Assembly: GCA_947504605.1 (NCBI GenBank)
Contig: CANNJE010000010.1
Span: 1-43,714 of the forward strand
Origin: Chitinophagaceae bacterium
Lineage (GTDB): Bacteria; Bacteroidota; Bacteroidia; Chitinophagales; Chitinophagaceae
Direction of reading: 5' to 3'
Length of the DNA stretch: 43,714 nt
Shown: piece after piece, positions 7,298 through 21,598 of the stretch
Numbering within the stretch: position 1 is the first letter of the stretch
How the letters are laid out: the number at the start of each line of letters is the position of its first letter
Translations under genes and position numbers: made by a program
The notes under the pieces: generated by a model
What the model was told of the DNA's origin: nothing
Database searches by the model: none
The model's input: only the letters and a program-made list of their open reading frames with translations

Positions 7298-9568
<2,271 letters not shown>

Positions 9569-9622: not shown

Positions 9623-9635
9623 TTTCAAAAATATT

Positions 9636-9651
9636 TACCTCTAATGAGGTA
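9636..9651 (-). terminator. Weak hairpin downstream of the GT-C-like gene
   Basis: TACCTC and GAGGTA form a 6-bp stem with a 4-nt loop. On the minus strand it is followed by AAATATTTTTG, so it could end transcription of the minus-strand gene at 9743-11455, backed up by the stronger hairpin just beyond. Confidence 0.35.
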
Positions 9652-9742
9652 TTTACCAAAACACGCAAAATCTATTTTAAATAGAATCCGTTTGTTGGCA
9701 ATCCTTTTATATCCACAAACTGCCAATTGAATGTTTTTTGGG

Positions 9743-11455
9743 TTAGTCAAAATTTTCTATTCCCTTAATCGTTTCTGCTTTAAGCGACAGACTAAATGGA
9801 ATCCATTCCCCGTTGATTGCCACTTTCATTCCAGTATGTATATTTAAACTTTTGGCATCAAAAGTATGTATAAAAACGGTTCGTATTTTGTCATTCTTAT
9901 AATCTTTCACCAAAATTTTTTGGGGTAAAATTTCTATGATTGTTCCTTTTACTCCTTTAAATATTTTTTGAGGTTCAGTAGATAATTTAGAATTGTCGTT
10001 GATCTTATAAATTTCAAAATACAATCCTGTAAATATTGGCGTATAACTATCTTCTACCTTAGGTTCTACACTCCGCATTTGCGAATTTTTACCATTGATT
10101 TGTTTTAATATGTACACCGAACGATACTTATTAAATTCACCTTTTGTAAGTAAGTAATCTGAAACTCCTTTTGTTCCAAATGTCCAATTAGCCAGAAGTC
10201 GCAAATCTTGCCTACCTACGATTGCATCATTATTGGAAAATAAAACTTTGTCTTGTATTTGTTGTAATTCTAAATATGCATTTTTACTGATACTAATCAT
10301 TGGCTTACTAAATGTTGCATAAGTAAAAGAAACACTCAATAATAAAATAAAAACAACCGTTGTTGGTATTTTCAACCATCTGCCAGCAATGGAATTGTAA
10401 ATAATTAAGTACAATCCTGTGATAGGAATATAGGCCATCATAAATAATCTGTTTGCCCATTCTAAACCTAAAAAAGGACTTGCGAGAAACAACGTGCAGG
10501 TTGCAAATGCAAACCCTAAAACATTTTGATAGTTTTTTATATTATTACGGTAACGAAGTAACAATAGGATGCCCTGAATTGCAAGCAAGTTCATTGCTAC
10601 TACTATTATTAAAGTTTGCCCCTGAAGAACCATATTTTGTCCATTGAATGCAAATAGAATCACCGGAGCTTCAAATATTTTTAATGGCACATGTAAAATT
10701 CTTAAAAATCTTGTGTAGTCAAATATTGAAACAAGTAAGAAGCATGACACCAATATAACAGCTGCCAATAAAAGTTTATTTAGGGATGGTCTTTTAAGTT
10801 TATCTTTTTGAAAAATGAACCAAAAGATAAAAATAACAAATGAAATAAAAACCACTAACCCAAAACTACCAAGATGAGTCAATGCACAAAGAATAAGTAC
10901 AATTATTGCTTTAAATATATCTTTTCTGTTTTCATACTTAATTATTTTCAAAGCATAAAACAAGTAGAAAAACACCCAAACAATTGCCAACCCGTTTTTT
11001 TGTAATTGATGTGAAAAAATTAAAAGAGGCGTGAAACTTAAAATTGCAAATGCAACCATTAAGTAATTAAAAAATGTTGATTTTATACTTTCAGTTTTGA
11101 GCTCTCTTGCTATCAAAAAAACAGGAATTGCAGATAATGGCGGCAAGAAAGCATCGATATATCTCACTGACAGTAAAATACATTCGTTTTCAGTTCCTAC
11201 ATGTAAGAAATATAAAAGTTTTGCAAGGATGCTACATAATGTAAAAAGTAATGGCATATCAGGGAAAGCCAAACGATAATGCTCAAACATATTTTTAACT
11301 TGCAATGGAAGGTATGGACCGTCTGAACCTGCTAATAAATAATGGTCTTCTGCTGAAGTACGGTAAAGCCTGAAAACAATTGCAATTATAATAAATGAGA
11401 TAACAGGCAACCATTTAATTAATTTATCGTTTTTCTCACTTTTATTTTTTGTCAT
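9743..11455 (-). CDS. Polytopic membrane protein, GT-C glycosyltransferase-like
   Basis: A 570-residue protein with about ten to eleven hydrophobic helices (first at about residues 14-30, the rest between about 100 and 400), followed by a soluble C-terminal region of about 170 residues. The first periplasmic loop carries an acidic pair-like site (LAGSDGPYLPLQVKNMFEHYRLAFPD) where GT-C lipid-linked-sugar transferases place their catalytic aspartate, and the overall topology fits that fold. I infer a GT-C-like enzyme and cannot name donor or acceptor. The tail ends in a small beta-rich unit (KGTIIEILPQKILVKD, GMKVAINGEWIPF) that looks OB- or SH3-like. The gene is AT-rich, stands alone, and has no other glycan genes beside it. 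Confidence 0.5.
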   Translation of the reverse strand: MTKNKSEKNDKLIKWLPVISFIIIAIVFRLYRTSAEDHYLLAGSDGPYLPLQVKNMFEHYRLAFPDMPLLFTLCSILAKLLYFLHVGTENECILLSVRYIDAFLPPLSAIPVFLIARELKTESIKSTFFNYLMVAFAILSFTPLLIFSHQLQKNGLAIVWVFFYLFYALKIIKYENRKDIFKAIIVLILCALTHLGSFGLVVFISFVIFIFWFIFQKDKLKRPSLNKLLLAAVILVSCFLLVSIFDYTRFLRILHVPLKIFEAPVILFAFNGQNMVLQGQTLIIVVAMNLLAIQGILLLLRYRNNIKNYQNVLGFAFATCTLFLASPFLGLEWANRLFMMAYIPITGLYLIIYNSIAGRWLKIPTTVVFILLLSVSFTYATFSKPMISISKNAYLELQQIQDKVLFSNNDAIVGRQDLRLLANWTFGTKGVSDYLLTKGEFNKYRSVYILKQINGKNSQMRSVEPKVEDSYTPIFTGLYFEIYKINDNSKLSTEPQKIFKGVKGTIIEILPQKILVKDYKNDKIRTVFIHTFDAKSLNIHTGMKVAINGEWIPFSLSLKAETIKGIENFD

Positions 11456-14102: not shown

Positions 14103-14843
14103 ATGTTTCAAAACTTCCTGCAAGTCCATGCGATTGCAAACAACAACTACGTGGCCTTTACATTTTTTGTAGGCACAATGGCCATGATGGCTGCTTGCGT
14201 TTTTTTCTTTTTCGAAATGTCTAATGTTGACAAAAAATGGAGGACATCCATTCTTGTTTCTGGGCTCATCACTTTTATTGCAGCTGTGCATTATTATTAC
14301 ATGCGAGGCTACAACTTGGAAACCGGGGAATCCCCTGTATTTTTCCGTTATGTAGACTGGATCCTTACTGTACCATTAATGTGTGTTGAGTTTTATCTAA
14401 TCACCAAAAAGGCTGGTGCAAAACTTAATCTACTGTGGCAATTAATTTTTGCATCGGTAATTATGCTTGTTACCGGTTATATTGGCGAAGCTATTTATGG
14501 CAAAGAGACTCAAAGCTGGATTTGGGGATTAATTAGCGGTCTCGCTTACTTCTATATTGTATACCTGGTTTGGTTTGGAGAAGTGGCAACACTGGCTAAA
14601 AACGCTGGTCCCTCAGTTCAAAAAGCAGTTAAGACACTTGGCTGGTTTGTACTTGTTGGCTGGGCTATTTATCCTATTGGTTACATTGCTGGTACAGAAG
14701 GTGGATTATTTGGAATAAAAATGTTCCAGAGTCTTTCAATGGACATTGTTTATAACATTGGAGATGCAATAAATAAAATTGGTTTCGGTCTTGTCATCTA
14801 TGCTTTAGCACAGTCTGATAAGTCTGTTACTCAAAACGCCTAA
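14103..14843 (+). CDS. Proteorhodopsin, light-driven outward proton pump
   Basis: A 246-residue seven-helix retinal protein of the inner membrane. Helix C (RYVDWILTVPLMCVEFYLI) carries Arg82, the Schiff-base counterion Asp85, Thr89 and the proton donor Glu96: the DTE motif of proton-pumping proteorhodopsins. His63 (AVHYYYMRG) matches the His75 that pairs with the counterion. Helix G (YNIGDAINKIGFG) has Asp221 and the retinal lysine Lys225. The spectral-tuning position equivalent to 105 is Met93, which in Bacteroidota goes with green absorption. In helix E, WIWGLISG places Gly142 where bulky residues close the ring pocket in most pumps, so an antenna carotenoid could bind. The gene ends in a strong terminator, and the retinal-forming blh follows. 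Confidence 0.96.
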   Translation: MFQNFLQVHAIANNNYVAFTFFVGTMAMMAACVFFFFEMSNVDKKWRTSILVSGLITFIAAVHYYYMRGYNLETGESPVFFRYVDWILTVPLMCVEFYLITKKAGAKLNLLWQLIFASVIMLVTGYIGEAIYGKETQSWIWGLISGLAYFYIVYLVWFGEVATLAKNAGPSVQKAVKTLGWFVLVGWAIYPIGYIAGTEGGLFGIKMFQSLSMDIVYNIGDAINKIGFGLVIYALAQSDKSVTQNA

Positions 14844-14907: not shown

Positions 14908-15847
14908 ATGATAAAGATTTTACTATTGGTGCTGGGTGTTCTCCTCCTTTTAGTTCAGCAGTATGTTATAGCTATTGAAACAACTACACAATTTTTAATT
15001 TTTATAGTAGGGATTTTATTACTTGGAGTTCCACATGGAGCTGCAGATTTATTGGTAGCTACAAGAAACGCTGATTCCTCTGAACAGATGTTTTCAACAA
15101 AATATTTCTTTATCGATTACCTAGGGAGATTGGTAATATTTGCTTGCATTTTATTTTTATTTCCTGTTGCAGGCAACTTATTATTTATCTTTTTTGCTGC
15201 GTACCATTTTGGAGAAACAGATTTGTACCAATTTAAAACCAATACCCTACTAGGGAAATTATTTGTAATATCTTATGGTTTACTAATTCTAGGTGTTATT
15301 CTGCTAAATCATTTTGATGAAGTAAAGCCGATTTTCATGTTGTTCGAATCGGGTAAAGAAAATCAAGCGATTATTAATTGGCTTAGCCTAAATCGATACT
15401 ATGTCCTTTCGTCTTTAGGCATCTTATTTTTCACTTCAACTTTTATTTATTTTTTAAAAAATAATCAACTAGACAATAGCAGTAAAGGTCAATTCTTAAT
15501 TCGTTTTGCATGTATTCTTTTTATTCTTTTTAATTTACCGATGTTACTTGGGTTTACATTTTATTTTGTTGTGTGGCATTCGCTATTATCTATTAAGAAC
15601 ATCATAAGTTATTTAAGAAAAGAAAATACATTTTCCTATAAAACGATTATGAAACAAATTTTACTGTACAGTTTTTTAGCAATTGCAGGCATTGTAATAT
15701 TTGGTTTAACTGGTTTTATGTTTATAAATACATTCTGTAGCTGGGTACATTTTCTTAGGATTGGCAGTACTTACAGCACCGCACATGAAAATAATGTATG
15801 ACATGTATGGCGCTATACGACAAAAAGGGAATGAAGTACTTAATTAG
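14908..15847 (+). pseudogene. blh: Brp/Blh-family beta-carotene 15,15'-dioxygenase with a 3' frameshift
   Basis: A polytopic membrane enzyme that cleaves beta-carotene into two retinals, the chromophore of the adjacent rhodopsin. Histidine motifs VPHGAAD (His43), AAYHFGETD (His100) and FVVWHS (His224) are present. As given, the frame ends at 15801 (297 residues) with a tail unlike the family after SWVHFL. The next frame, entered by removing one T from TTTT at 15750-15753, continues LGLAVLTAPHMKIMYDMY and ends at TAG 15845-15847, restoring the family's C-terminal PHM...MY motif and a total of 312 residues. Either an indel has damaged the gene or the base call at this homopolymer is wrong. The rest of the gene shows no other lesion. 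Confidence 0.88.
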
Positions 15848-16115: not shown

Positions 16116-18056
16116 TTAAATGGATGAATTAAATAAGAACATCCATACCTCGCCATATTTACTATCATATTTATCTATTTTACGTTGTTTGTATAAATGC
16201 TGGAGTATTATACGGGTTGCTTCTATTGGAGTACCAGTCACAAAAGCATATTCTTCCGCTGTCATATTATGGAACATTGAAAAAATCAGTTCCGGATCAA
16301 TTAGTTTTGAATTTTTCTTAGCATTTGGAAGTATCTGAAGTATTATTTCCTCAAATTTTTCATAAGGCTGATAGCCTTTTATAGTTTTTTTAATAACGGC
16401 ATTCTCTAAAAAGAAAAAAGTAGGAAAAATATTAATACCCATCTCTTTCGACAATTCCAAATCTGCCTCAAATAACTTTAGACCGCTGCTTTTAATATCT
16501 TTTTTTAGCAATGCTGTATCCAATCCGCTGGATAGCGCAGCACTTTCTATTATTTCCCATTTGGTGATATTCTTTTTTTCTAAGAAAACCAATTCTTTCA
16601 GCCTTCTTAAGAATGTAATTGCTTTATCACTATCCTGGAGTTGTGCTGCCTTAAATGCAATAGAAGGAGGATACGATGAATCCAGTGGATCTTCAATCCA
16701 TATATCTCCATCTAAAAACATATACTGAGCAGCATTTACTTCTTCCCAATGTTTGGCCGCATCCAAAGCAGTTTTGATTGTCCCTTTATCATAGTCCTTC
16801 CAAGACGGAAGTAAGCCACCCATACGATAATCAATCTCTAAGTAATCTCCATATTCCAATTTCAGTTTTCTCAAAATCGGCTGAATTATCCAACAGGTAG
16901 AACAGATAGGATCGGTAAAATAAATGATTTTTAATGGCTCTTGAATACGGAAAGTTTTAAACTTCGTATTCCCCGAAATAAGTGGCAAAAGAAATCCTCG
17001 TTCACTAAATTTTTGAGGATTTAAAAATATTTTTTTGAGTACTCTTCCTTGTTCAATATGGCTTTCTATTTTTGGCGACCTCTGTGAATAGTAATGCTCA
17101 AAAGCTGTTTCGAGGTTTAAAAATTGATCCATTGATTGAGCCAAGCATTTGGCATCCGATATAGCATTGCTTGTTCCCGCACTCGTAAATGGAACTGCTA
17201 AATGAGCCGCATCCCCTATTAGAACAATGTTTTCTTTGTGAAAACTAGGTAGTAGATCAAAATCTCTTGTTTTCCATATATATGCGTTTTTAAAATCGGT
17301 TGCTCCCAAAACCGCTTTAACCTCGGCTGGAAAATCTTTCATCATTTCAGTACATAGAGCCTTTATACTTTCTGGGTTGTTTTCTTCGAGTCCATTTGAA
17401 AGATTCACATCATATTGCATGAACCATACAACTTCATCAGCCGAAGAAGGAATGTAACCAAAGGCTAAACCTTTATCTTCACTTTGAATTTTTTGAAAAA
17501 TGACATCCTTACCCTCTCTGTTTATTTTTTTTTGGGATATCCCAACAATTTCATTTACTTCTATTGGACTAAATGTTGTTTTCCCATGTATCGCCTCTCT
17601 CACTTTTGAATTACTTCCATCTGCACCAATAAACACGTCACCATATTCAATTTCACCATTATCAAAAACAGCCGCAATGGCTTTGTTATCTTTATAAATA
17701 AAATGAGAAAACGCTCTTCCTTCCTTTAACGTTTCATTCGAAAAAAATGAATGGAGAAAATAAATTAAGTCCACCCGCTTCATGCAATACCAGTCTATCA
17801 ACTGAATTTTAATCTTTTCGTCACCATCAGGTCTTTTGAGGCTAAAAAGATTAACGTGTTGCTTCAATAATTGAATCTTCGACTCATTTAAAAATTCTGC
17901 CAGAATTGAAAGTCCTTCAAAATTTATTAGAAATGCATGCCCGCGTGTAAAAATAGAAATTGCTTTTTCACAAACAACTACGTCCCAGTTTTTTCGTTTT
18001 AATAGTATTGCTATTGTCATTCCTGCAATACCACCCCCAATAACTACGGCTTTCAT
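16116..18056 (-). CDS. Fusion of FAD-dependent monooxygenase and DsbA/SpxH-like thioredoxin-fold protein
   Basis: A 646-residue two-enzyme fusion. Residues 1 to about 370 form a PHBH-fold flavin monooxygenase: the GGGIAGM dinucleotide site at the N-terminus, the GADGSNSKVR (DG) motif, and LIGDAAHLAVPFTSAG with Asp282 contacting the flavin. From about 375 to 580 comes a DsbA-superfamily domain of the FrnE/SpxH kind: YFTDPICSTCW with Cys385 and Cys388, RMGGLLPSWKDY, and a cis-proline loop (INIFPTFFFL). The last 60 residues look like a small helical or winged-helix unit. There is no signal peptide, so it should be cytoplasmic. Its start overlaps the stop of the aminotransferase gene (ATGA). Substrate unknown; I know of no standard enzyme with this architecture. 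Confidence 0.8.
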   Translation of the reverse strand: MKAVVIGGGIAGMTIAILLKRKNWDVVVCEKAISIFTRGHAFLINFEGLSILAEFLNESKIQLLKQHVNLFSLKRPDGDEKIKIQLIDWYCMKRVDLIYFLHSFFSNETLKEGRAFSHFIYKDNKAIAAVFDNGEIEYGDVFIGADGSNSKVREAIHGKTTFSPIEVNEIVGISQKKINREGKDVIFQKIQSEDKGLAFGYIPSSADEVVWFMQYDVNLSNGLEENNPESIKALCTEMMKDFPAEVKAVLGATDFKNAYIWKTRDFDLLPSFHKENIVLIGDAAHLAVPFTSAGTSNAISDAKCLAQSMDQFLNLETAFEHYYSQRSPKIESHIEQGRVLKKIFLNPQKFSERGFLLPLISGNTKFKTFRIQEPLKIIYFTDPICSTCWIIQPILRKLKLEYGDYLEIDYRMGGLLPSWKDYDKGTIKTALDAAKHWEEVNAAQYMFLDGDIWIEDPLDSSYPPSIAFKAAQLQDSDKAITFLRRLKELVFLEKKNITKWEIIESAALSSGLDTALLKKDIKSSGLKLFEADLELSKEMGINIFPTFFFLENAVIKKTIKGYQPYEKFEEIILQILPNAKKNSKLIDPELIFSMFHNMTAEEYAFVTGTPIEATRIILQHLYKQRKIDKYDSKYGEVWMFLFNSSI

Positions 18057-19216
18057 GTCATCAGTTTTTTGATCCGGTCGAGTGCTTCAGTTAAGATAAA
18101 TTCGGAACTTGCAAAACTCATTCTAATATGTCCCTCAGCCCCATCTCCAAACCATTGTTTTAAACCCGGCACCACAGCTACTTTTGCCTCATTTAATAAA
18201 AGGTCATGAATTTCCTGACTCGTTTTATTAGTCCCGGTGATATCTGTAAATGCTACATAACATCCTTCTGGTGCAATACACTTGAATCCGGGGATTGAAT
18301 TCAATTCATTCACCACTATATTTTTCATCGAGGACAAATGACTTAAAAAACCATCCAACCAATATTCGCAAGAATTCATTGCCGTTGTGGCAGCTATTTG
18401 AGACAGTACACTAACGCCATGAATGGTAGAATAATGCATGGAAGCATCCATTAATAATTTATAATGAGCTTGATTGTGTGCTATTACTGCACCAATTCTT
18501 AAGCCGGCTAACCCATACGATTTGCTGAATCCGGTAATGGTAACTGTATGATTTCTGATTTCCTCATTTAAGGAAGCAATACTTGTAAATACGGCAGGCT
18601 TAAAAACGATATCACTCCAAATTTCATCCGATAAAATAACAAGCCCATGCTTACATGCAATTTGTCCTAACTGTGTTAATTCCGATTTCGTAAAAACTTT
18701 ACCTGTTGGATTTAATGGATTGCACAGGCAGATCATTTTTGTCTTTGGGGTAATCAATGCTTCAAGCAGGTCAAAATCAACTTTAATAATCCCTGCAGGG
18801 ATAGCGAAAGGCACGGCTTTAGCATGAACTGATTCTATTGAATGCCTAAATAAAAAATCTACCGGATCAAAAATGATGGCTTCATCCCCCTTTTTAAGGA
18901 AAGCTTTACAGGTTAAATAAATTCCATAGGCAGCGCTATTTACCGGAAATGCAAGTGCTGGAGAAACAGGCACATGGCGTTTTTTTTGATAATAATGGGC
19001 AATACTATCTTTGAAATCGGACAATCCTTCCGGAGGACCGTAGCAATAATACTTGTCTTTGGCAAAAGTGCAAATAGCTTCTGAAATTTCCGGAGCACTC
19101 GGAAAATCAGGATCTGCTGCCGTAAGAGGTATAACCCCCTCAGGAACAGTAGCCCACCTTAAATTAAAAGCACGCTTTTTTAAAAGTTCAAGATCAACCC
19201 AAGCATTGTCAAACAT
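18053..19216 (-). CDS. PLP-dependent class I/II aminotransferase or C-S lyase
   Basis: A 387-residue fold-type I PLP enzyme. The PLP lysine is Lys232 in TGFSKSYGLAGLR. CNPLNPTGKVFTKSEL and LSDEIWSDIVF are the cofactor-binding Asn and Asp segments, and HIRMSFASS supplies the C-terminal substrate-binding arginine. The opening (MFDNAWVDLELLKKRAF, then ADPDFPSAPEI) resembles the MalY/PatB branch, so it may be a cystathionine beta-lyase-like enzyme instead of a true aminotransferase. I start at the ATG at 19216; the frame extends 66 bp to a TTG but that part is not conserved-looking. It is first in a two-gene operon, overlapping the monooxygenase fusion by 4 bp, so the two probably act on the same pathway. 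Confidence 0.85.
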   Translation of the reverse strand: MFDNAWVDLELLKKRAFNLRWATVPEGVIPLTAADPDFPSAPEISEAICTFAKDKYYCYGPPEGLSDFKDSIAHYYQKKRHVPVSPALAFPVNSAAYGIYLTCKAFLKKGDEAIIFDPVDFLFRHSIESVHAKAVPFAIPAGIIKVDFDLLEALITPKTKMICLCNPLNPTGKVFTKSELTQLGQIACKHGLVILSDEIWSDIVFKPAVFTSIASLNEEIRNHTVTITGFSKSYGLAGLRIGAVIAHNQAHYKLLMDASMHYSTIHGVSVLSQIAATTAMNSCEYWLDGFLSHLSSMKNIVVNELNSIPGFKCIAPEGCYVAFTDITGTNKTSQEIHDLLLNEAKVAVVPGLKQWFGDGAEGHIRMSFASSEFILTEALDRIKKLMT

Positions 19217-20464: not shown

Positions 20465-21598
20465 TTACAAATTCCCCCTCGCATCCTGCTCCCGCTCCAA
20501 AGCCTCAAACAATGCTTTAAAATTGCCCTTACCAAAGCTTTTGGCACCCTTGCGTTGTATAATTTCAAAAAACAAGGTTGGCCTGTCTTCTACCGGCTTG
20601 CTAAATATTTGTAATAAGTAACCCTCATCATCTCTGTCAATAAGAATACCAAGATCCTGCAATGGTTGCAGATCTTCATCTATATGGCCTACCCTGTCCA
20701 GCACATCCGCATAATAACTTGCCGGAATTTTAAGAAATTCCACCCCACGCTTTTGCAGTTCCGTCACGGTTTCAATGATATTGGCTGTAGCCAATGCCAC
20801 ATGCTGCACCCCTTCGCCATCATAAAAATCAAGGTATTCTTCTACCTGACTTTTCTTTTTGCCTTCAGCAGGTTCGTTGATTGGGAATTTCACATAGCCG
20901 TTTCCGTTGCTCATTACCTTGCTCATTAAAGCGCTGTATTCGGTAGAGATATCATTGTCATCAAAACTGAGGATGTTTTTAAAACCCATCACATCCTGAT
21001 AAAACTTCACCCAGGGATTCATCTGGTTCCAACCCACATTACCCACACAATGATCTACATACAACAAACCGGTTTCGGTAGGATTATAAACAGTATCCCA
21101 TTTTTTAAAACCCGGCATAAACACACCCTGGTAATTTTTGCGTTCAATAAAAAGGTGCACCGTATCGCCATAGGTATGAATACCACTCATGACCACTTCT
21201 CCGTTATCGTCCTTAAGCGTTTTGGGCTCCATATAACTCTTGCCCCCCCGGCTAGTTGTTTGTTTCCATGCATCTGCGGCATCTTCCACCATCAGGGCGA
21301 GGTATTTTACACCATCGCCATGTTTGTAAATATGATCGGCAATATTGTTGTTGCCCTTTAGCGGTGTGGTTAGTACAAAAGTGAGTTTGTTCTGACGGAT
21401 CACATAACTCACTTTATCTTTCATGCCCGTTTCCGGTCCGGCATAAGCCAACGATTGAAAACCAAAGGCCGTTTTATAAAAGTGTGCAGCCTGCTTGGCA
21501 TTGCCTACATAAAACTCTACATAATCGGTTCCCATGAGGGGCAAAAAATCGGTAGTGGCGGAAGCCTTGTTTTCGGCTGCAGAAATGTTTGTTGACAT
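20465..21598 (-). CDS. hppD: 4-hydroxyphenylpyruvate dioxygenase
   Basis: A 377-residue non-haem iron enzyme that converts 4-hydroxyphenylpyruvate to homogentisate in tyrosine catabolism. The two vicinal-oxygen-chelate domains are visible, and the iron triad is intact: His183 (YVDHCVGNV), His266 (GVQHVALAT) and Glu345 (TLFFEIIQRKG). The C-terminal GAKSFGKGNFKALFEALEREQ is the helix that closes the active site. Length is normal. No homogentisate dioxygenase or fumarylacetoacetase lies in the window, so the rest of the pathway is elsewhere. The start is the ATG at 21598, followed by a non-conserved 16-residue lead. Confidence 0.96.
   Translation of the reverse strand: MSTNISAAENKASATTDFLPLMGTDYVEFYVGNAKQAAHFYKTAFGFQSLAYAGPETGMKDKVSYVIRQNKLTFVLTTPLKGNNNIADHIYKHGDGVKYLALMVEDAADAWKQTTSRGGKSYMEPKTLKDDNGEVVMSGIHTYGDTVHLFIERKNYQGVFMPGFKKWDTVYNPTETGLLYVDHCVGNVGWNQMNPWVKFYQDVMGFKNILSFDDNDISTEYSALMSKVMSNGNGYVKFPINEPAEGKKKSQVEEYLDFYDGEGVQHVALATANIIETVTELQKRGVEFLKIPASYYADVLDRVGHIDEDLQPLQDLGILIDRDDEGYLLQIFSKPVEDRPTLFFEIIQRKGAKSFGKGNFKALFEALEREQDARGNL

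Follow-up and report, generated by a model that had tools for sequence, protein, structure and literature searches.

A flavin monooxygenase fused to a YjbH-type DsbA protein and encoded beside a C-S-lyase-like PLP enzyme in Bacteroidota

YjbH (SpxH) is known chiefly as a protease adaptor. A paper from 2020 (PMC7253607) states that a winged helix forms the end of YjbH, that its cysteines are dispensable for YjbH-dependent Spx degradation in B. subtilis and S. aureus, that the S. aureus adaptor has no CXXC, and that thioredoxin activity of YjbH in Firmicutes had not been demonstrated at that date. Among pyridoxal 5'-phosphate (PLP) enzymes, F108 stacks on PLP in GntC (PMC10367076), and EgtE acting on its sulfoxide without a reductant yields thiol and sulfenic acid (PMC9103826). 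Here we describe a locus of a Chitinophagaceae bacterium (contig CANNJE010000010.1; the 43,714-nucleotide stretch analyzed is called the window) in which a YjbH/SpxH-type DsbA protein is joined to a flavin monooxygenase (FMO) in one open reading frame (ORF), with the gene of a C-S-lyase-like PLP enzyme directly upstream. The three parts recur together in several arrangements, with conserved motif residues in each; their folds are known ones, but the recurrent combination is new and the PLP site is unusual. As the initial annotation had supposed, a literature search aimed at the combination found no description of it, most subscription journals being outside its coverage.

Domain structure of the fusion and its PLP partner

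The fusion gene (16116..18056, minus strand) starts with ATG and encodes 646 amino acids (model pLDDT 89.3, pTM 0.83). That these form one FMO-DsbA protein, as initially annotated, is borne out by Pfam and phmmer matches, motifs, and an alignment of 84 rows that reduced, after removal of seven duplicates, to 77 distinct full-length fusions. The PLP gene (18053..19216, minus strand) ends at 18053, where it overlaps the fusion by an ATGA stop/start (18053..18056). An alternative start of its ORF is TTG 19282; because a Met aligns with ATG 19216 in 55 of 69 relatives, the start was placed there, in agreement with the end coordinate of the initial annotation, giving an enzyme of 387 amino acids. 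The ratio of nonsynonymous to synonymous substitution rates (dN/dS) relative to locus L027 was low (~0.09 for the fusion and ~0.05 for the PLP gene, with dS saturated near 2), which, together with conservation across loci (below), argues that the pair is not a chance arrangement.

Residues 1–350 of the fusion (17007..18056, minus strand) are assigned from sequence as a class A (PHBH-type), HpxO-like flavin monooxygenase with predicted oxygenation activity. FAD_binding_3 matched residues 2–331 (8.5e-17, Pfam), and the structural matches, PHBH-fold enzymes, agree with the class A fold. The flavin-binding motifs GGGIAG, D146-G147 and G281-D282 are present, and residues G7, G9, G12, D146, G147, G281 and D282 of the GxGxxG, DG and GD motifs are each conserved in 77/77 distinct fusions. 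The same holds for S150 and R153, which with D146 and G147 make up the DG fingerprint, the mark of NAD(P)H-using class A enzymes. C91 is kept in 72/77 and is Ser or Gly in the other five. A linker (residues 351–372; 16941..17006, minus strand), with pLDDT <50 at 362–371, leads to the second half.

Residues 373–646 make up a complete YjbH/SpxH-type DsbA protein, the tail being its predicted winged helix. The thioredoxin domain with helical insertion (residues 373–577; 16326..16940, minus strand) matched Thioredoxin_5 at residues 379–569 (2e-49, Pfam). It is followed by the C-terminal winged helix (residues 578–646 plus stop; 16116..16325, minus strand), modeled as helices and two strands, and these elements together in one protein are the YjbH/SpxH architecture. 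With the whole fusion as phmmer query, residues 372–643 aligned to 24–295 of the 298-residue YjbH structure 6ghb; for the isolated 274-residue domain, residues 2–271 matched 26–295 of 6ghb (3.3e-43). What had been annotated as a C-terminal helical tail was therefore misread, since its residues align to YjbH, whose end is a winged helix. Foldseek gave TMt 0.90 for 6ghb against the DsbA part; this structural match comes from Foldseek and sequence, the VIA comparison having barely covered the DsbA part. In the active site C385-S-T-C388 (16893..16904, minus strand), C385 is conserved in 77/77 and C388 in 75/77 distinct fusions, and P545, in the presumed cis-Pro loop, in 77/77. No export signal was evident in the fusion, so it would reside in the reducing cytosol, where its CxxC would act as a reductant.

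Two fusions (L030 and L031) read CSAS instead of CSTC, each beside a separate DsbA gene, which is suggestive of complementation, though the two cases probably go back to a single event. The separate SpxH/DsbA gene lies convergently and directly downstream of the fusion at L030 (4530–5567), L031 (11958–12995) and L086 (11475–12476); at L086 the DsbA part of the fusion is broken. Regular expressions found an N-terminal two-cysteine motif of the NPLLCDxxxGxC type in 25/26 standalone SpxH-like homologues (e.g. L018, L108–L124), preceded by a lipobox-like cysteine in 17/26; the window fusion does not have this motif.

The PLP enzyme belongs to fold type I and matched Aminotran_1_2 (1.4e-50, Pfam). 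Its best PDB sequence match is the aspartate aminotransferase 1gd9; C-S lyases top the structure ranking, and the PatB-type C-S lyase fold is matched over the full length. K232 (18521..18523, minus strand), the PLP Schiff-base lysine by homology, is present in 74/74 family rows. D120 (18857..18859, minus strand) occupies the position of the PLP-stacking aromatic residue. It is D in 74/74 family rows, and also in 91/91 rows (89 distinct) of a further alignment, and it aligns to Tyr of 4dgt and Phe of 1gd9; the 25 paralog rows, two of which (L144 and L149) are wrong-frame ORFs, have F, Y or W. W200 (18617..18619, minus strand), which replaces Tyr of the DE(V/I)Y motif, is W in 74/74 family rows, the paralog rows having Y (23/25) or H (2/25). 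The stacking aromatic residue that marks the PatB family is thus absent, and the scores fell below the NCBIfam cutoffs both for the PatB family TIGR04350 (218 bits versus 340) and for GntC NF041364 (204 bits versus 415), so membership in either family was rejected. We take the enzyme, on its predicted fold, to be C-S-lyase-like and to represent a subfamily with its own D120/W200 active-site signature.

Conservation and arrangements of the three parts

Genome contigs scanned for similarity to the fused query yielded 520 relatives, of which the best 80 loci were kept; as they were picked by that similarity, the fused share among them is biased and cannot be taken as a prevalence. A single ORF carries both domains in 79/80 kept loci (some cut by contig ends), the exception being L086. 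An artefact or missing stop, or a fusion unique to this assembly, can be dismissed: separate genes do exist, in another genus (g58, below), and 77 distinct full-length sequences share the fusion. Upstream of it, 74/80 kept loci have the PLP gene; the other six are contig-end cuts (L073, L101, L104) or have other genes in its place (L058, L076, L082). Where both genes are complete (67 loci), the gap is –4 bp in 43 and ≤5 bp in 57, in keeping with the tight two-gene operon originally described; a fixed ratio of the two proteins may be inferred from the gene overlap.

Among 147 related genomes, 24 matched at 1e-20, and 12 of these hold a complete fusion, the window's own included; contig-edge pieces occur in two more. 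The 11 other complete fusions are 36–56% identical to that of the window, and seven full-length fusions from the 147 genomes are identical to ones in the best-80 set. An even draw of 395 genomes across the phylum contained the full fusion in at least two and a PLP orthologue (1e-100 or better) in at least five, these being lower bounds since only three or four candidates per genome were scored. Among the carriers with species or genus names are isolates of Flavobacterium, Pedobacter and Flectobacillus; the others are mostly metagenome bins, a few of them with lake names in the title. A mobile element was considered and rejected on few or weak matches: nine plasmid records matched the PLP enzyme (one distant Persicobacter orthologue at 39%, eight generic at 30–32%), two phage records matched the DsbA part only (25% identity), and five viral contigs matched weakly. 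The 1750-base Listeria 'phage' records OR847750.1 and OR849388.1, with a YjbH-like stretch (25%), are short and probably host sequence. A Bacteroidota-type operon (44% identity) is found on L098, a metagenome-assembled contig titled Streptomyces griseus, a title that is probably wrong.

Four arrangements were seen: PLP-[FMO-DsbA], [DsbA-FMO]-PLP, DsbA-FMO-PLP and FMO-PLP, brackets denoting fusion. In genome G102, a single ORF of 660 amino acids has DsbA first and FMO second (Thioredoxin_5 at 11–187, FAD_binding_3 at 301–611), with the PLP gene 1 bp later, and G140 has the start of such a reverse-fusion ORF at a contig end. Genus g58 (173 genomes) carries a PLP orthologue in 126. We read 16 of its neighborhoods (14 picked to span the identity range, together with G351 and G406), and in all 16 the PLP gene is immediately preceded by a separate FMO gene; the next upstream slot holds a separate DsbA gene in four, a tryptophanase-like gene in seven (L166, L167, L197–L200 and L204; named from G351) and neither in five. 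With this separate g58 DsbA as query, 54/173 g58 genomes matched, 22 of them with a copy of at least 76% identity. All 22 close copies are on the contig and strand of the PLP gene, at a spacing, compared by eye, of ~1.1 kb (one FMO) in 21 and 2.9 kb in G665; in the other 32 genomes the match is just 52–57% and is either distant from the PLP gene or accompanied by no listed PLP match. Three separate genes are thus seen at four loci read and, by spacing, in 22 genomes. On plasmid pPP3 of Persicobacter psychrovividus, FMO and PLP genes, annotated 'NAD(P)/FAD-dependent oxidoreductase' and 'aminotransferase', overlap by 8 bp.

In the FMO tree, which left out the FMOs of three-gene operons and Persicobacter, the FMOs of 33 fusions, of the reverse fusion and of G351 and G406 stood together, apart from five other FMOs, with support 100, under a long-branch warning. 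Forward fusions formed one side of a branch in the DsbA trees (support 81–85, not starred). The DsbA of the reverse fusion sits on a long branch with an unsure placement that shifts between trees, and for that reason these trees cannot serve as proof of independent fusions. From the PLP tree L144 had been dropped, but the wrong-frame ORF L149 was left in it, and the family therefore split into two groups there. The L030 PLP enzyme groups with L042/L049 (support 100) and both L030 fusion domains group with the window (99), so recombination within the operon is likely there. At L027, the PLP gene and the fusion are separated by a 370-bp insert (9630–10000) that contains a decayed copy of the PLP 3' end; L028 has a gap of similar size.

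Elsewhere in the window are a bacteriorhodopsin-like gene (14103–14843) followed by a Brp/Blh-type beta-carotene dioxygenase gene (14908–15801), a retinal-based rhodopsin set; a 4-hydroxyphenylpyruvate dioxygenase-like gene (20465–21598), which lies two genes upstream from that of the PLP enzyme; and, more distant, a catalase/peroxidase HPI gene (7361–9568). The rhodopsin and both dioxygenase genes were rejected as parts of the system, as they cluster with no other loci.

Candidate functions

We tentatively favor a three-component enzyme system DsbA(YjbH-type)-FMO-PLP, with two genes here because DsbA and FMO are fused. With NAD(P)H and O2, the FMO would oxygenate a substrate that derives from an amino acid and probably bears sulfur; the C-S-lyase-like PLP enzyme would cleave the oxygenated product by elimination; and the tethered dithiol, which the thioredoxin system of the cytosol would keep reduced, would reduce an oxidized intermediate (sulfenic acid, disulfide or quinone), thereby taking the role of the external reductant for the sulfoxide lyase EgtE. 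The occurrence of both fusion orders and of the unfused operon strongly indicates that a particular oxygenase and a particular PLP enzyme have a YjbH-type protein as their working partner. The sulfur chemistry suggested initially remains plausible given the C-S-lyase fold and dithiol domain. At the Flavobacterium loci L032, L033, L035 and L044, methionine adenosyltransferase is the next downstream gene (same strand, 0.3–0.7 kb) and O-acetylhomoserine sulfhydrylase lies 0.5–8.3 kb upstream on the other strand; the latter is also ~5.6 kb upstream at L053, and the Flavobacterium locus L100 is in neither cluster (names taken from L033, other loci by cluster). These neighbors fit sulfur metabolism, though they may reflect synteny of the genus. 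A 1130-amino-acid MetX-aspartokinase-homoserine dehydrogenase fusion is also found around the operon of L033.

Several observations weigh against this enzyme system. FMO-PLP pairs stand without an adjacent DsbA in 12/16 g58 neighborhoods, and none is listed beside the pair on pPP3, where the gene table is incomplete; DsbA is therefore not obligatory in cis, and the idea that it is always required is not supported. Fusions lacking a PLP gene (L058, L076, L082) and a PLP gene without an adjoining FMO (G293) also occur. The methionine-related neighbors are not seen in most loci, and, the kinase pair described below excepted, no cluster, most being unannotated, recurs in more than 8/81 loci. The C-S lyases compared have neither D120 nor W200, so elimination is a putative step. 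PHBH-type FMOs hydroxylate mostly aromatic rings, and among the structures nearest to the FMO domain we know of no S-oxygenase.

A serious alternative, which we consider somewhat unlikely, is that the YjbH-type part binds proteins instead of catalyzing: as a protein-binding or redox-sensing module, like the Firmicutes protease adaptor, it would regulate how much oxygenase is present or how active it is, or recruit a partner, e.g. the PLP enzyme. It is serious because Spx degradation in B. subtilis and S. aureus does not depend on the YjbH cysteines (PMC7253607); the full-length homology including the winged helix, and the g58 pairs with no DsbA beside them, also point this way. Near-invariance of C385 and C388, whereas that source describes the S. 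aureus adaptor as lacking CXXC, and a linkage that, whichever the fusion order, is to a single enzyme pair argue against it.

It is unlikely, though still worth weighing, that the locus is a two-enzyme small-molecule pathway that converts a common amino acid into an oxidized signal or protective product, read in some lineages by a co-transcribed histidine kinase, the dithiol part just protecting or recycling the enzyme. In 13/67 loci the operon is immediately preceded by co-directional genes for a PAS/HATPase histidine kinase and a single-domain receiver protein, the receiver 9–111 bp from the PLP gene (domain content verified for three of the kinases and one of the receivers). A same-strand gene follows within 60 bp downstream in only 6/62 loci, and the tryptophanase-like gene of g58 would also suit such a pathway. 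Against this, the kinase pair is absent from 54/67 loci and may go back to one ancestral event, and PAS/HATPase kinases are common.

A bolder form of the favored enzyme system, which we regard as a rather remote prospect, would be a new route making or unmasking a small thiol by flavin S-oxygenation, PLP-dependent sulfoxide elimination and sulfenic-acid reduction by a dithiol in the same chain. It would be an FMO counterpart of ergothioneine and ovothiol chemistry, with an acidic side chain above the ring of the cofactor in the PLP site and a product feeding the co-transcribed kinase in some lineages.

Transfer of electrons from the DsbA dithiol to the FMO flavin, giving a thiol-driven oxygenase or a QSOX-like thiol oxidase, is improbable: a thioredoxin fold and a flavin domain do share one chain in two orders, the pTM suggests docked domains in the model, and C91 is widely kept, but the DG fingerprint is intact, C91 is replaced in five fusions, and FMOs without DsbA exist. 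Equally improbable is an ordinary aminotransferase in an incidental neighborhood, which the 1gd9 match and the Persicobacter gene name favor and which the D120/W200 signature in all rows, the frequent upstream position and the structural ranking of C-S lyases contradict.

Comparison with described systems

The operon offers a test system for thiol catalysis by the YjbH family. The PLP subfamily, with aspartate as the cofactor-stacking residue, occurs in several Bacteroidota genera and is named just 'aminotransferase' in the one annotated record seen. With YjbH/SpxH of Geobacillus (GK0824, PDB 6ghb) the window domain has in common the whole length, the CxxC and the winged helix, and it differs in being joined to an oxygenase. 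The window FMO is ~20% identical to HpxO and other class A FMOs (3rp7, TrlE 8rqh, PhzS 3c96), from which its DsbA fusion sets it apart; with respect to QSOX/Erv thiol oxidases, the flavin domain matches PHBH-fold enzymes, no search having been aimed at the Erv domain. Relative to PatB/MalY-type C-S lyases (6qp3, 3l8a, 3b1c), the PLP enzyme has D120 for the stacking aromatic residue and W200 for the His/Tyr after DEI. GntC, the guanitoxin cyclodehydratase, is the third best NCBIfam match of the window enzyme (204 bits) and the best of the g58 enzyme (226 bits); D120 contrasts with its F108, which stacks on PLP (PMC10367076). A C-S-lyase-like enzyme beside an oxygenase recalls OvoB and EgtE of ovothiol and ergothioneine synthesis. 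The sulfoxides of OvoB and EgtE are made by iron enzymes; those systems have no dithiol domain, and the window system has an FMO in place of their iron enzyme.
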